Shown: positions 35,487-40,657 of the stretch, piece by piece | Layout of the letters: every line of letters begins with the position of its first letter | Position numbering within the stretch: the first letter of the stretch is position 1 | NCBI RefSeq assembly: GCF_000455345.1 | Contig: NZ_HG315690.1 | Coordinates: forward strand, 1,005,742 to 1,069,741 | Source of the DNA: Halopiger goleimassiliensis | GTDB taxonomy: Archaea; Halobacteriota; Halobacteria; Halobacteriales; Natrialbaceae | Reading direction: 5' to 3' | Length of the DNA stretch: 64,000 bases | Notes under the pieces: model-generated | What the model saw: only the letters and a program-made list of their open reading frames with translations | What the model was told of the DNA's origin: nothing | Databases searched by the model: none | Position numbers and translations under genes: made by a program

Positions 35487-36056
35487 GTGACTCGGAACGA
35501 GCCCGAAATCGGAGCAGAGATCGGAACCGGAACCGGCTCCGGATCGTCCGCCGCGGACGCGCTCGAGGACGACACGCCGCTCGTCCGCCCCAAGGGCTAC
35601 GTGGCCGACGAGCCGATCATCCGCCGGATCGGCGATCGGGAACTGTTTCTCGGGAACGAGCACGCCGCCGATCCGACTCGCCACGACCGAGCGTTCGAAT
35701 TCGTCGTGTCGGTCAGTAGCGAGTCACAGCCGCTTACAACCCATCATCGACCGCTTACGGATGGTCCCGGAACCGAGTGGAGCGCCTTCGAAACCGCGGT
35801 CGACACCGCCCGGCAGTGCTATCGCCGGAACGGGGCGACGCTGATTCACTGCGCGGCCGGTATCTCGCGAAGCAGTACGCTCGTTGCGACGACGATCGCC
35901 GCCGAAGAGGGGGTGTCGTTCCGCGAAGCGCTCGAGCACGTTCACGACGCGCGCCCGCTCGCGTTCCCGAACCCCGCTCTTCACGAACTCGCCGTGGTGT
36001 ATCTCGCCGCGACCGCCGATACCGATCGGCCGATCCGACGGTCGAACCGCGACTGA
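35487..36056 (+). CDS. dual-specificity protein phosphatase family protein
   Basis: A 189-residue protein. Residues 44-180 form a dual-specificity phosphatase domain with the catalytic HCAAGISRSS loop (Cys122, Arg128) and a possible general acid Asp92. The N-terminal 30 residues are Gly/Thr/Ser-rich and acidic. It should remove phosphate from Ser/Thr or Tyr residues; substrates are unknown. GTG at 35487 is used because no ATG precedes the phosphatase domain in frame. Confidence 0.85.
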   Translation: MTRNEPEIGAEIGTGTGSGSSAADALEDDTPLVRPKGYVADEPIIRRIGDRELFLGNEHAADPTRHDRAFEFVVSVSSESQPLTTHHRPLTDGPGTEWSAFETAVDTARQCYRRNGATLIHCAAGISRSSTLVATTIAAEEGVSFREALEHVHDARPLAFPNPALHELAVVYLAATADTDRPIRRSNRD

Positions 36057-36122: not shown

Positions 36123-37184
36123 GTGGCCGCACACACCGCCGAGTCCGAGTTCGCCTTCGAACTGCGAACCTGTCGGTGGGCCGAACGGACCTGGCCCCCC
36201 GACGGCGACGACGCTCCCATCCCGATCGTCGCCCGCCAGCTCGGCACGAAGCGCCGCCGCTGGGACACTATCGTCCTCGAGTGCGATCCCGACGCCCTCG
36301 AGCAACGCGCGAACTTCGGCCCGGAACGGCTCGACGGCGACCTGCTGCACGTCGTCCGGAACGCGCCCGCGGAGTGGGCCTACTACCGCGACGCGCTGCC
36401 GTATCCCGGCTACCCGTGGCGGTACGTCCGGGAGGCGATCCACCGGGCCGACGACCGGGGGATCCTCGAAACGCGCAAGAACGGCAATCGCATCGAGATC
36501 CGCCGCAAGTGGGCCTACCCCGACTGGGTCGACCGGATCGTCGCTATCGAGAACAAGCCCGATTTGGACGCCAGCGCCGCCCGCGTCCTGGCCGACCAGC
36601 TCGAGTACGACGTCGGGATGGCGCTGGCCGACGAGGTCTGGGTCGCGACGGAAGCGACCGGCGATCGAATCGAACCCGTCCTCCTCGAGGACCTGCCGGT
36701 CGAGGCGGGCGTCCTCGCGCTCGAGCCCGAGACGCTCGCCGCGACCGTCGAGTGGTTCCCCCGGTCGCTGGCCGTCGACGACCCGGGAACGCGCATCCTC
36801 GAGCGAGCGAGCGGCGACGGTCGGGACGCGTCGGCGGCCCGCTTCGAGTACGTCGATCCCGAGGAGAAGGCCCGAACCCGTCTCGAGATCGCCGAACGGG
36901 CTTACGAACGCGGCTGGCGCTCGTTCCTCGACACGATGCGCCCCGACTGTCGCCACTTCGAGGCGCGGGCCGCGGACGGACTGCAGGCGCTGCCGTACTG
37001 TCGCGCCAAGGGACGGTGCCAGACGGCCGCGGAGTGTGCCGGCTCCTGTCCGTCGTTCGAACCGGAGCCCCCCGCCTGGCGGTCGCGAGAGTGGCCCATC
37101 GAGGGCGGCCCCGGGAAGACGATCCGACGTGTACTCGAGGGCCGGCGTCGGCGGCGGCGACCCGGACAGGACGCGAATCGATAA
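36123..37184 (+). CDS. nuclease-like protein with C-terminal cysteine cluster (DUF5787-like)
   Basis: A 353-residue protein starting with GTG at 36123. Residues 130-180 contain a PD-(D/E)XK-like pattern: Asp137 in PDWVDRIV, then AIENK with Glu143 and Lys145, then QLEYD with Gln159. Residues 276-309 contain five cysteines (276, 293, 299, 305, 309), which could hold a metal or Fe-S cluster. I recall the family as DUF5787, unchecked. An RNA- or DNA-processing nuclease is inferred from the motif; no partner gene is adjacent. Confidence 0.6.
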   Translation: MAAHTAESEFAFELRTCRWAERTWPPDGDDAPIPIVARQLGTKRRRWDTIVLECDPDALEQRANFGPERLDGDLLHVVRNAPAEWAYYRDALPYPGYPWRYVREAIHRADDRGILETRKNGNRIEIRRKWAYPDWVDRIVAIENKPDLDASAARVLADQLEYDVGMALADEVWVATEATGDRIEPVLLEDLPVEAGVLALEPETLAATVEWFPRSLAVDDPGTRILERASGDGRDASAARFEYVDPEEKARTRLEIAERAYERGWRSFLDTMRPDCRHFEARAADGLQALPYCRAKGRCQTAAECAGSCPSFEPEPPAWRSREWPIEGGPGKTIRRVLEGRRRRRRPGQDANR

Positions 37185-37241: not shown

Positions 37242-38498
37242 TTACCCGACGATACCAGCCACCTCCTCGAAGCGTACGGTCCGAGTCTCGCCGTCGCGGC
37301 TCTCGAGTTCGACGGCTCCGGTCTTGCGGTATCGGTTCCCGAGAACCACCTTCCAGGGAACGCCGAGCAGGTCGCTCTCGGCGAATCGCTCGCCGATCGT
37401 TCGATCGGGGTCGTCGAACAGAAGCGTATCGGTTCCGAGTTCCTCGTACAGTCGATCGGCAATCGTCTGCAAGTCGCCGTCGTACTCGAGGGGAACGATG
37501 GAGACGTCGAAGGGTGCGAGAGAGCCGACGTCCGCCCCAGCGTCGGGCCAGCGACAGCCGTTCTCGTCGCCGTGTTGCTCGACGAGGACGTGGAGAAGCC
37601 GGTCGATACCGATCCCGTAGCTTCCCATCACCACGTCGCGTTCGCCGCCGTCGACCGTGTCGATCGTCAGCCCCATGGGCTCGGCGTAGCGCGTCCCGAG
37701 TTCGAAGACGTGGCCGATCTCGATCCCGTCGCCGGCCTCGAGTCGACTGCCGCAGTTGGGACAGGCGTCGCCGGCCGACAGATCGTTCCGGGGTGACTCG
37801 TCGGTGACGCCGAACCGGCAGTCCCTCGCGGGACAGCTGCGAAGCGACACCGTTCCCTCGTCGGCGAGCGCGACGAACTCCTCGGACCTCGAGCCGCCCA
37901 TGACGCTGTTGTCGGCCAGCACGATGGCGAACTCGAGGTCGAGCGCGTCGAAGATCCGGACGTAGGCCTCGCGAACTCGTTCATACCACCTCGAGAGGGA
38001 ATCCTGGCTCGCGTGCAAACTGTAGGCGTCTTTCATCGTGAACTCCTTCGTCCGAACGAGACCGTTTCGCGCGTGGTCGTCGCGGTACTTCGACTCGACC
38101 TGGTACAGCAGAAGGGGAAGGTCGTCGTAGGAACGGACGACGCCGTCGACGAGGTGTGCGACGCCCTCCTCGTGGGAGGGGGCCAGACAGAGCCGTTTCC
38201 CGTCGCGGTTCTCGAGGGTGAACATCTCGCCCTCGAAACTCTCCCAGCGACCGCTCCGTCGCCAGATGCCGCTGTCGTTCAGCGAGGGGAGGCTGATTCG
38301 CTGGCCACCGATGGCGTCCATCTCCCGTTCGACGACCGATATTACGTTCTCTCGGACGCGGTAGCCCGTGGGCGTAAAGCCGTATCGTCCACTGGCGAAC
38401 TGTCGGACCAAGCCAGCCCGTAACGTCCGGGCGACGGTCTCGTTCTCGTGACCGTCAGCCTCCCGGCTCGTGAACAGGAGCGTCTCGCTACGCCGCAT
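37242..38498 (-). CDS. proS: bacterial-type prolyl-tRNA synthetase with reduced insertion domain
   Basis: A 418-residue class II synthetase. The opening MRRSETLLFTSREA, motif 2 region YQVESKYRDD and RTKEFTMKDAYSLH, motif 3 MGSYGIGIDRLLHVLVEQHG with DENGCRWP, and the C-terminal anticodon domain (GVPWKVVLGNRYRKTGAVEL) are those of bacterial ProRS. The large bacterial editing insertion is absent and replaced by a short linker with Cys222, Cys227, Cys246 and Cys249, a likely zinc site. Haloarchaea normally use the archaeal/eukaryotic ProRS type, so this is probably an additional enzyme acquired from bacteria. ATG at 38498; the upstream frame is not conserved-looking. Confidence 0.88.
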   Translation of the reverse strand: MRRSETLLFTSREADGHENETVARTLRAGLVRQFASGRYGFTPTGYRVRENVISVVEREMDAIGGQRISLPSLNDSGIWRRSGRWESFEGEMFTLENRDGKRLCLAPSHEEGVAHLVDGVVRSYDDLPLLLYQVESKYRDDHARNGLVRTKEFTMKDAYSLHASQDSLSRWYERVREAYVRIFDALDLEFAIVLADNSVMGGSRSEEFVALADEGTVSLRSCPARDCRFGVTDESPRNDLSAGDACPNCGSRLEAGDGIEIGHVFELGTRYAEPMGLTIDTVDGGERDVVMGSYGIGIDRLLHVLVEQHGDENGCRWPDAGADVGSLAPFDVSIVPLEYDGDLQTIADRLYEELGTDTLLFDDPDRTIGERFAESDLLGVPWKVVLGNRYRKTGAVELESRDGETRTVRFEEVAGIVG

Positions 38499-38766
38499 CG
38501 CGATCACCCCCGGTGTGAGCGGTGTCCCAGCGAGTCGCTCGCTCGAGTCCGTCGAAACTGAATCGATCGAAGGAATCACAGCCGTCGCTACGACGCTTTG
38601 TGACCAGTCGTTCGTCTACGTGAGTAGAACCAGCGGTGTCGCTACGACCGTCGCGGAACCCAGCCGTGGGCCGCGCCGGACCCACGGTTGCTGAGTCGTG
38701 CAGTTCGAGACATACAACTGTCGTGTTGGAACGCGGATATAAATAGATTCGGATTGGCGGTGAGGG

Positions 38767-39270
38767 TCAGTCCGCTTCCTCGACCTCGATCTCGTTGCGT
38801 TCGACGGCCAATCGGAACGTTGGGACGGTGCGGTACTCGACCTCGACGACGTCCTTTCGGCGGAGGCTCTGCAGGCCCGAGCGGACGTCCTCGGCCTCGG
38901 GATCGACGTCGAAGGCGTCCCGGAGTTTGTGTAACACCGAGACGACGCTCTCGGATTCCTCGTCGGGACCGGCCAGTACCTCGACGATCTGGACCTGCAG
39001 TCGGGGGACGCGAATCCGGGACGGAGCGCCTTCGTCGTCGGGATCGCTCTCGATCCCCGGTTCGACGTCGACGAGGTCGGCGGCTTCGTCGGTCGCGCGG
39101 ATCAGGCTGTTGTCGTCCCGGTAGTAGTAGTCGCCCAGTTCGTTCTCGAGGTACTGGTGAACCTCGCTGCCGCTGTCCATGCCCCACCGTTCCTGGAGTT
39201 CGGCGTTCTTCGTCGGCTGTAGCTCCACCACGTCCCCCAACCGTTCTCTGGCCTCCTCCGAAAGCGTCAT
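38767..39270 (-). CDS. conserved haloarchaeal winged-helix-like protein (DUF5797-like)
   Basis: A 167-residue acidic protein. The N-terminus TLSEEARERLGDVVELQPTK followed by NAELQERWGMDSGSEVHQYL suggests a helix-turn-helix, and residues 100-145 a second helical module (VSVLHKLRDAFDVDPEAEDV). I recall this family as DUF5797, unchecked. No enzyme motif is seen; a DNA-binding role is inferred. ATG at 39270 gives the natural start. Confidence 0.75.
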   Translation of the reverse strand: MTLSEEARERLGDVVELQPTKNAELQERWGMDSGSEVHQYLENELGDYYYRDDNSLIRATDEAADLVDVEPGIESDPDDEGAPSRIRVPRLQVQIVEVLAGPDEESESVVSVLHKLRDAFDVDPEAEDVRSGLQSLRRKDVVEVEYRTVPTFRLAVERNEIEVEEAD

Positions 39271-39328: not shown

Positions 39329-40657
39329 TCAATCGCCGCCCACGAGCGGCACCGGGAGCGAGGCGGTTCGCTCGAGCGTCTCCTCGATCTGCGTGTAGAC
39401 CAACAGCGCGCCGGCGGCGGCGAGGACGGTCCCGAAGATGAAGGGCACCGCGAAGCCGTAGCCGACCAGCCCACCCGAAAGCAGCGGACCGAGGGCGATG
39501 CCGAAGCCGAAGGCCATCGTGAGGATCGAGAGCTTCGATCCCGACTCACCCTCGCCCGCGAGGTCGCCTGCCAGTGCGAGCGACGGTGCGAAGACCATCG
39601 CGCCGGCGATGCCCTGCACGAGGCGGGCGAGGAACATCGTCTCCGAGGTGGTGACGAACCCCTGGGCGAGCGTCGACGGGATCAACAGCACCATCCCGAA
39701 GAGGATGAACGGCCGCCGGCCGTAGCGATCACAGGCCCGTCCGACCGGCGTCTGCAGCAGGACCTGGGCGATCACGAACGCCGCGAACTGGAGACCGAAC
39801 CAGGTCTCGCCCTGCGAGAGGCGCTCGTTGACCTGGGGCTGGATGGTCGCGAGCAAGGCGATCGAGGCGGCCATGAACAGCGACGCGACCCCGAGCGTGA
39901 AGATCGGATCGAGCAGGTGCCGTCCCGTCGGATCCCGGATCGAGATCGAGAGATCGGCCCCCGCGTTGGCCTTCGTCGACTCGGGGTCGGTGATCAACAC
40001 CGTCACGAGCAGGTAGCTGATCGCCGCGGCGACCGCCGCGACGTAGAAGGCGGCGTCGAAGCCGGTGATCGTGATCCCACCGGGGAGCGAGAACGGCCCG
40101 AGGGTGACGACCGTCCCCGCGGCGATCGGACCCGCACCGAAGCCGAGCAGCCGGAACGTGTTGTAGACGCCCATGTTCCCGCCGCGGTCCCCGGTCGTCG
40201 CGAGTTCGTTCACGAGCGCGACCGACGCCGGGACGATGAACGAGACGCTGATGCCCTGCAGGCCGCGAACGACCAGCAGCGACGCGTAGGAGTCCGCGAG
40301 CAGGTAGGCGAGGTTCGTCACCGTCAGCCCGCCGAGTCCGATCAGCAGAAACGGTTTTCGTCGGCCGTAGCGGTCCGAAAGCCGGCCGGTGAACGGCTGG
40401 AAGCTGCTGTTGAGAAAGCCGTACAGCGAGAGGATGATCCCGATGACCATCGACTCCGCGAGACCGAACGTCGCTCCGCCGACGGCGGGGCTCGCGACGT
40501 ACAGCGGGATCACGATGACGAGAAACGAGTTCCCGATGCCGTCGGCCATCCGGGCGAACGCCAGCGCCAGCACCCGACGGTCGACGACGAACTGCGCGAC
40601 GATCCCCCTCGCGAGGGTCGCCACCATCGCGACGAATCGATCCACCAGCCGTCGCAT
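39329..40657 (-). CDS. MFS transporter
   Basis: A 442-residue membrane protein with 12 helices in two halves. Motif A is seen twice: GRLSDRYGRRKPFLL near residue 91 and a second GRACDRYGRRPFILF near residue 305. The architecture is that of drug/solute efflux or uptake members of the major facilitator superfamily; the substrate cannot be read. ATG at 40657 is a sensible start with a short Arg-rich leader before the first helix. Confidence 0.9.
   Translation of the reverse strand: MRRLVDRFVAMVATLARGIVAQFVVDRRVLALAFARMADGIGNSFLVIVIPLYVASPAVGGATFGLAESMVIGIILSLYGFLNSSFQPFTGRLSDRYGRRKPFLLIGLGGLTVTNLAYLLADSYASLLVVRGLQGISVSFIVPASVALVNELATTGDRGGNMGVYNTFRLLGFGAGPIAAGTVVTLGPFSLPGGITITGFDAAFYVAAVAAAISYLLVTVLITDPESTKANAGADLSISIRDPTGRHLLDPIFTLGVASLFMAASIALLATIQPQVNERLSQGETWFGLQFAAFVIAQVLLQTPVGRACDRYGRRPFILFGMVLLIPSTLAQGFVTTSETMFLARLVQGIAGAMVFAPSLALAGDLAGEGESGSKLSILTMAFGFGIALGPLLSGGLVGYGFAVPFIFGTVLAAAGALLVYTQIEETLERTASLPVPLVGGD

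Follow-up and report, generated by a model that had tools for sequence, protein, structure and literature searches.

A compact bacterial-type prolyl-tRNA synthetase in a haloarchaeon

The window analysed here, a 64,000-nt stretch of the Halopiger goleimassiliensis genome, carries on its reverse strand a gene for a compact prolyl-tRNA synthetase (ProRS), which we call proS2. The ORF starts with ATG at 38498, ends at 37242 and encodes 418 aa followed by a stop codon. The features of the coding region are as follows.

37242..38498 (-): proS2, compact bacterial-type prolyl-tRNA synthetase of 418 aa, no INS editing domain
37752..37835 (-): codons 222-249 with Cys222/227/246/249, a putative zinc site; the pairs flank INS in several full-length bacterial ProRS
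38046..38084 (-): motif 2 loop, where the family alignment places His at E. coli R144 and a deletion of the preceding residue

Its neighbours in the window (35487-36056, 36123-37184, 38767-39261 and 39329-40657) are a dual-specificity-phosphatase-like protein, DUF5787, DUF5797 and an MFS transporter. The order of DUF5787, DUF5797 and the MFS gene around ProRS2 is kept solely in close relatives, and a conserved gene neighbourhood was rejected on this ground.

The assignment to the bacterial ProRS class, made in the original prediction from the sequence motifs, was confirmed. ProRS2 passes the bacterial-type model TIGR00409 (proS_fam_II) with 357 bits against a cut-off of 306.7, while the archaeal-type TIGR00408 yields just 101 bits against a cut-off of 437; the score to PRK12325, 334.5, is under its cut-off of 550. 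Pfam recognizes the class II core and the anticodon domain. Class II motifs 1-3, the TxE-type proline pocket and the anticodon domain are retained, with T109 of the pocket conservatively changed to Ser in 36/39 haloarchaeal ProRS2. An AlphaFold2 model (pLDDT 82.6, pTM 0.84) matched best to bacterial ProRS 2j3l (Z 35.7, rmsd 3.4, 385 residues aligned), followed by 5znk, 8w8j, 5ucm and 2i4l, whereas archaeal ProRS reached Z values only near 26-27. Bacterial ProRS are thus the closest solved structures by sequence as well as by fold. Compared with bacterial-type ProRS, including the INS-less alphaproteobacterial enzymes (2I4L, PRK12325), the predicted protein has the same motifs, proline pocket, anticodon domain and fold (Z 33-36), but differs in the missing INS between its Cys pairs, in the change of R144 to His together with a one-residue deletion, and in the change of E142 to Asp. 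Judged by sequence and predicted fold, ProRS2 is a new member of the bacterial-type ProRS with altered tRNA contacts. We found neither this ProRS nor its leader described in the open-access literature, and an earlier description elsewhere is possible.

The INS editing domain is missing from between two cysteine pairs

Alignment with ten INS-containing bacterial ProRS confirmed that ProRS2 lacks the editing insertion, as had been predicted. Each of Cys222, 227, 246 and 249 is kept in 38-39 of the 39 haloarchaeal ProRS2, and matching CxxC...CxxC pairs stand on both sides of INS in the ProRS of Paenibacillus, Collinsella and Streptomyces. The four cysteines had originally been read as a mini-insertion in place of the editing domain. 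The cysteines themselves are real and conserved, but they do not replace INS: since the pairs bracket INS in full-length bacterial enzymes, the stretch is what remains where INS is absent between two knuckles. On this alignment ProRS2 is a bacterial ProRS with INS gone from between two putative zinc knuckles, whose Cys pairs would bind zinc.

INS is found in most but not all bacterial-type ProRS and is absent from the alphaproteobacterial members; it is therefore not strictly defining for the type. In a compact Parcubacteria ProRS (L025 4907-6025) of similar length the four cysteines are likewise joined directly with no INS, and loss of INS between the knuckles may have occurred more than once. 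Unlike haloarchaeal ProRS2, to which it is 36% identical, the Parcubacteria enzyme retains R144.

The tRNA-reading elements are altered

R144, with which the RPR motif of motif 2 begins, is His in 36/39 haloarchaeal ProRS2, the residue preceding it is deleted in 39/39, and E142 has become Asp. According to PMC12152171, which cites Burke et al. 2000 and others, R144 is essential in bacterial ProRS, where its mutation lowers kcat/KM by more than 1000-fold, and acceptor-stem G72 is a major identity element. Host tRNA-Pro carries G1:C72, and the bacterial RPR motif with R144, used on G72 tRNA-Pro, is absent from ProRS2. The motif 2 changes look like a re-adaptation of the acceptor-stem reader to archaeal tRNA-Pro. 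In the anticodon domain, the DDR-motif Arg (E. coli R512; codon 364 in the window, 37407-37409) is found in 10/11 bacterial references, yet 36/39 haloarchaeal ProRS2 lack it, among them the proteins that serve as the sole ProRS of their genome.

A freestanding tRNA_edit (PF04073) protein is encoded in 9/10 genomes checked, Halopiger goleimassiliensis included; in G052, a ProRS2 carrier, no freestanding PF04073 editing protein was detected. PF04073 is the family to which ProXp-ala and YbaK belong.

The ProRS2 family replaces the archaeal enzyme in one genus

We searched 292 genomes of Halobacteria, each at least 90% complete. The bacterial-type ProRS2 family occurs in 27/292 (E below 1e-120); the next matches, with about 28% identity and E values of 4e-20 or weaker, lie mostly in ORFs of about 650 residues or more. 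Archaeal-type ProRS is present in 290/292, and in the genome that carries the window it lies at C1:1766396-1766626. The prediction of a second, compact bacterial-class ProRS beside an archaeal-type one therefore holds, and ProRS2 is neither the only ProRS of its genome nor the widespread main form of the class. In a sample of the phylum, no ProRS2 match at E<=1e-60 was found beyond class Halobacteria.

The two genomes without archaeal-type ProRS, G001 and G007, each have a member of the ProRS2 family. They come from one genus in the family of Halobacterium, are 2.1-2.2 Mb in size and are 99% complete. Their tRNA-Pro genes have the anticodons CGG, GGG and TGG, with G1:C72 and A73, as in relatives. 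Lacking the archaeal type yet keeping the standard tRNA-Pro set, these organisms must charge archaeal tRNA-Pro with the ProRS2-family member. Genome content thus indicates that the family can evidently sustain protein synthesis, and by inference that ProRS2 charges archaeal tRNA-Pro with proline.

The original prediction had also suggested a special task, on a modified tRNA or another acceptor. Streptomyces ProRSx, which pairs with a tRNA-Pro bearing an Ala anticodon, would be an example of a task outside normal proline coding; the remodelled motif 2 loop and the missing DDR Arg would suit such a task, but this is very improbable, since G001 and G007 live on the family alone with the same substitutions and ordinary tRNA-Pro of normal anticodons (as in relatives), no tRNA-Pro with an Ala anticodon occurs among the tRNAs read (part of the tRNA complement), and the CCG-linked regulation of ProRS2 itself, described below, points to tRNA-Pro.

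A phylogeny, one of the checks suggested with the original prediction, placed the 39 haloarchaeal ProRS2 in a single clade (100/100) separate from the bacterial references. The Parcubacteria ProRS falls among these references, outside the haloarchaeal clade and on a long branch, so that direct descent from it is not shown. Within the haloarchaeal clade, a small group (G001, G007 and MAG QS_1_68_20) is sister to all others. A mobile plasmid origin was rejected, the plasmid matches being ordinary bacterial proS with <42% identity. The ratio dN/dS is 0.024 in the G001/G007 pair, reliant on ProRS2 alone, 0.03-0.06 in Halovenus pairs without the leader described below, and 0.12-0.33 in most leader-type pairs (one near-identical pair, with very few changes, gives 0.77). 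Archaeal proS gives 0.02-0.21; leader-type ProRS2 is thus under constraint, though a weaker one than in a housekeeping gene.

A conserved leader with an upstream ORF and a hairpin precedes proS2

The region upstream of proS2, which the original prediction had not noted, proved the more informative part. We identified the following features there, all on the same strand.

38738..38746 (-): TATA-like box CTATTTATA, ~25 nt before the ATG of the uORF, the spacing seen in leaderless transcripts
38642..38713 (-): uORF encoding MSRTARLSNRGSGAAHGWVPRRS followed by a stop, its start codon in frame with GTTCCG
38664..38687 (-): 9-bp hairpin CCGTGGGTC-CGGCGC-GGCCCACGG within the uORF, with compensatory changes
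38654..38659 (-): invariant GTT-CCG, the proposed site of the +1 shift, with Val GTT as slippery and Pro CCG as hungry codon
38488..38658 (-): ORF in the +1 frame from the shift site; its stop TAG (38488-38490) overlaps proS2 codons 3-4
38502..38511 (-): Shine-Dalgarno (SD)-like GGGGGTGATC within the +1 ORF and immediately upstream of the proS2 start (proposed coupling)

This leader is conserved upstream of 24/27 ProRS2 genes in the 292-genome sample, and almost every ProRS2 gene that shares its genome with the archaeal-type enzyme has it. A CM of the leader (R1) gave 26 strong matches (>=43 bits) in these genomes, 24 before ProRS2 genes and 2 before deletion remnants of them; all other matches scored <=33.7 bits. 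No family of Rfam 15 matches the leader over its gathering score. Across leaders, the TATA-like box stands ~25-30 nt before a uORF of 18-25 codons, a distance that fits leaderless haloarchaeal transcripts (PMC3986360). In 30/30 leaders the uORF start shares its frame with GTTCCG, at distances varying by multiples of three; two leaders have GTG as this start instead of ATG. What follows is less fixed: the codon after GTT-CCG is not CGA in about a third of leaders, and the position of the uORF stop ranges from +9 to +27.

The hairpin is supported by covariation, with 97.3% of cells paired, 18 two-sided changes and 0/500 shuffles doing as well, against 31-45% paired in slid controls. Some of the pair-keeping changes alter the uORF peptide (Gly to Glu, Arg to His), which argues that RNA, not peptide, is what this region keeps.

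An always-open +1 frame connects the uORF to the proS2 start codon

GTT-CCG and the ProRS2 start are separated by a spacer of 62-179 nt, with a length of 2 mod 3 in 29/30 leaders. Read in the +1 frame relative to the uORF, no leader contains a stop, whereas the other two frames contain 27 and 68 over ~955 codons; the two stops that a fixed-phase tally gives for the +1 frame both come from the one leader whose spacer phase differs (L032). The end of the +1 ORF relative to the ProRS2 start, which lies beside a Shine-Dalgarno motif, is likewise confined to +8 (24 leaders), +11 (5) or -2 (1), accounting for 30/30. The +8 stop is a TAG within CGT AGC of ProRS2 codons 3-4, and L032 compensates for its spacer phase by ending the +1 ORF through TAATG (-2). 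This TAG is absent from the nine ProRS2 genes without leader. In shuffled spacers of 15 representatives, the arrangement arose by chance in 7-22% each, with a product of ~1e-13.6 that overstates independence because the leaders and genes are related. We saw no amino-acid-level constraint on the +1 peptide, for which few differences were available. A -1 frameshift into the ProRS2 frame (open frame RLGSAI...) was considered and rejected: that frame contains 27 stops and the +1 frame none once the L032 phase is allowed for.

How ribosomes would enter the +1 frame can be judged from its start codons. In L002 the +1 frame offers no start codon beyond its last stop, so entry there needs a shift, and in L029 the sole such start codon is TTG. 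Most leaders have a GTG in the +1 frame upstream, at differing positions, and independent initiation is therefore possible in some. The simplest entry, on this sequence comparison, would be a shift from the uORF. GTT is invariant at the proposed shift site although it makes up just 78/1091 Val codons in these genes. GTT would be read by wobble by tRNA-Val(GAC), and a +1 slip to TTC would pair G-C at the third position. The leader thus has the hallmarks by which a programmed +1 frameshift element is recognized, namely a conserved shift site, a nearby 0-frame stop and an open +1 frame.

Leader-type proS2 genes avoid the sensor codon

We then compared proline codon usage in ProRS2 genes with and without the leader, in the archaeal proS of the same genomes and in 79 flanking ORFs.

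Leader-type ProRS2: CCT 20, CCC 361, CCA 5, CCG 10 (CCG 10/396)
Leaderless ProRS2: CCT 5, CCC 65, CCA 18, CCG 56 (CCG 56/144)
Archaeal proS: CCT 8, CCC 308, CCA 16, CCG 276 (CCG 276/608)
Flanking ORFs: CCT 58, CCC 471, CCA 162, CCG 759 (CCG 759/1450)

CCG accounts for 39-52% in the controls. Fisher tests gave p values of 2e-35 against leaderless ProRS2 and 3e-116 against flanking genes, which are indicative only because the sequences are related. Pro is the outlier amino acid in codon use (Cramer V 0.50, next Ser 0.27), and GCG, ACG and TCG are used normally. The two other reading frames of these genes are rich in CCG (748 and 481, vs 10 in frame); the avoidance is therefore one of codon choice and not of a DNA motif. 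ProRS2 genes without leader use CCG normally, except for L005 (none) and L015 (less). Selective-charging theory predicts a sensitive codon in the leader and a robust codon in the regulated gene (PMC1183508), and the selective codon choice characteristic of attenuators is what we observed, CCG being invariant in the leaders and rare in the genes.

The second strongest bias in leader-type ProRS2 (V=0.27) is a shift of Ser codons to AGC/AGT.

A starvation-switched +1 frameshift as the probable control of proS2

We consider it quite likely that proS2 is an auxiliary, conditionally expressed gene switched on by starvation through a +1 frameshift. With enough prolyl-tRNA(CGG), the ribosome would read CCG and stop a few codons on, ~50-170 nt before proS2, which would then scarcely be translated. 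If prolyl-tRNA(CGG) runs short, CCG in the A site would stay empty and the P-site tRNA-Val on its weakly paired GTT could slip +1; the slipped ribosome would translate the +1 ORF, terminate on the proS2 start codon and reinitiate there, aided by the internal SD-like motif. The hairpin, re-forming behind the ribosome, may, speculatively, favour forward slippage. As proS2 is almost free of CCG, it would stay translatable under the shortage. Hungry codons in the A site are known to drive +1 frameshifting (PMC5009743), and in H. volcanii SD motifs seem to serve within operons but not in 5' UTRs (PMC3986360). In E. coli, extra ProRS relieves poor tRNA-Pro charging (PMC8384417), so the output of the model fits its input. 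Whereas the enzyme family, the replacement of the native enzyme in one genus, the hairpin, GTT-CCG, the +1 ORF and the CCG avoidance come directly from genome comparison, we infer from them the slippage itself, uncharged tRNA-Pro(CGG) as the signal and the induction of proS2. Several observations speak against the model. It has a single Pro codon as sensor, while classical attenuators use several (PMC1183508), and L005 has no leader yet lacks CCG. The GTG codons in the +1 frame, the variable sequence after GTT-CCG, the two uORFs that start with GTG and the lack of visible constraint on the +1 peptide, all described above, weigh against it too.

The shortage itself may arise from an inhibitor of the archaeal-type enzyme (ProRS1), from proline limitation or from m1G37 deficiency. 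In the first case ProRS2 would be an inhibitor-resistant copy, much as the original prediction had suggested with an antibiotic-resistant one: a natural compound blocks ProRS1, prolyl-tRNA falls and ProRS2 takes over. As this reading supplies a reason for the regulation and not another mechanism, it is compatible with the frameshift model, and we regard it as plausible, though somewhat doubtful. Second aminoacyl-tRNA synthetase (aaRS) genes often serve resistance (PMC9437257), and the two ProRS here differ in class; ProRS of the archaeal/eukaryotic type bind halofuginone (e.g. 6mn8). Induction by tRNA shortage would suit a resistant copy. On the other hand, there is no biosynthesis or conserved resistance neighbourhood, the flanking genes in the window being common only to close relatives. 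We know of no ProRS inhibitor in these habitats, which also counts against this reading.

Alternatively, the signal might be under-methylation of tRNA-Pro (m1G37) and not a shortage of proline or ProRS1. Loss of m1G37 in E. coli lowers tRNA-Pro charging and stalls ribosomes that have a Pro codon in the A site, an effect relieved by extra ProRS (PMC8384417). That effect, however, hits all three tRNA-Pro isoacceptors, whereas only CCG and CCA are avoided here, and we consider this signal unlikely.

Still less likely is classical attenuation without a frameshift, in which a CCG-stalled ribosome would activate proS2 by altering the fold of the RNA or by preventing factor-dependent transcription termination. 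The sensor codon, the hairpin and the CCG avoidance would suit any codon-starvation sensor, and many leaders have a short U-containing motif (CTGTTTCT-like) after the uORF. Yet RNAalifold gave no common downstream RNA fold, and attenuation would leave unexplained why the +1 frame is always open and ends on the start codon. Predicted SD accessibility averaged 0.37 free and 0.37 stalled, rising in 16/29 leaders; SD sequestration relieved by CCG stalling was accordingly rejected, as it had no effect in the folding predictions.

Taking the frameshift model together with the origin of the enzyme, we propose, with a probability of roughly 0.7, that a conserved regulatory +1 shift in cellular archaea senses uncharged tRNA-Pro(CGG) at one hungry codon and, by translational coupling, switches on a spare, horizontally acquired ProRS with a CCG-purged mRNA; in one genus a family member free of this control would have replaced the native enzyme.

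Relation to known regulatory systems

The proposed regulation joins two known kinds, regulatory +1 frameshifting and codon-starvation attenuation, in an arrangement that we did not find described in the open-access literature. Like the programmed +1 frameshifts of the bacterial RF2 gene, antizyme and Ty1 (CUU_AGG_C), the ProRS2 leader has an in-frame stop soon after the shift site, and in each a slow A-site event would sense the need for the product. Unlike them, the leader is archaeal, its signal would be a sense codon for the enzyme's own tRNA, and the shifted product would be a mere leader peptide coupling translation to a separate gene. With ribosome-mediated attenuation and selective charging (PMC1183508) it shares a sensitive codon in the leader that is avoided in the gene, but it differs in its single Pro codon, its haloarchaeal leaderless uORF and a proposed output by change of frame instead of RNA fold. 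For archaea, a 2021 review of recoding reports one cellular -1 frameshift case and presumed frameshifting in magnesium chelatase genes, and lists +1 frameshifting only for a haloarchaeal virus, with no regulatory cellular case (PMC8211752).

If the model is true, it adds a new control device for an aaRS, a regulatory +1 shift as sensor of tRNA charging, and provides a clear natural case of selective-charging theory, with a sensor codon in the leader and immune codons in the gene. The enzyme would in addition exemplify a bacterial-type ProRS adapted to archaeal tRNA-Pro which in one genus has replaced the native enzyme. Firmicutes control spare aaRS by T-boxes. Like the induced auxiliary enzymes among duplicated aaRS (PMC9437257), ProRS2 would be a spare synthetase answering a shortage of charged tRNA, with a different regulatory device.

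Loss of ProRS2 and further ProRS matches

ProRS2 has also been lost: G179 and G003 retain the leader before deletion remnants of the gene. In both (L221, G179:C47:131917-131964; L227, G003:C1:2649448-2649495) the leader is intact before an internally deleted ProRS2, and the +1 ORF has gained a stop in L221 and is still open in L227. The ProRS2 of Haladaptatus halobius (L020 5001-6247) has a one-base frame break near codon 51, reflecting either a pseudogene or a sequencing error. Three genomes, G106 (C11:59390-61322), G059 and G257, contain two matches each to the archaeal ProRS C-terminal domain, those of G106 lying in tandem with one in a short frame.
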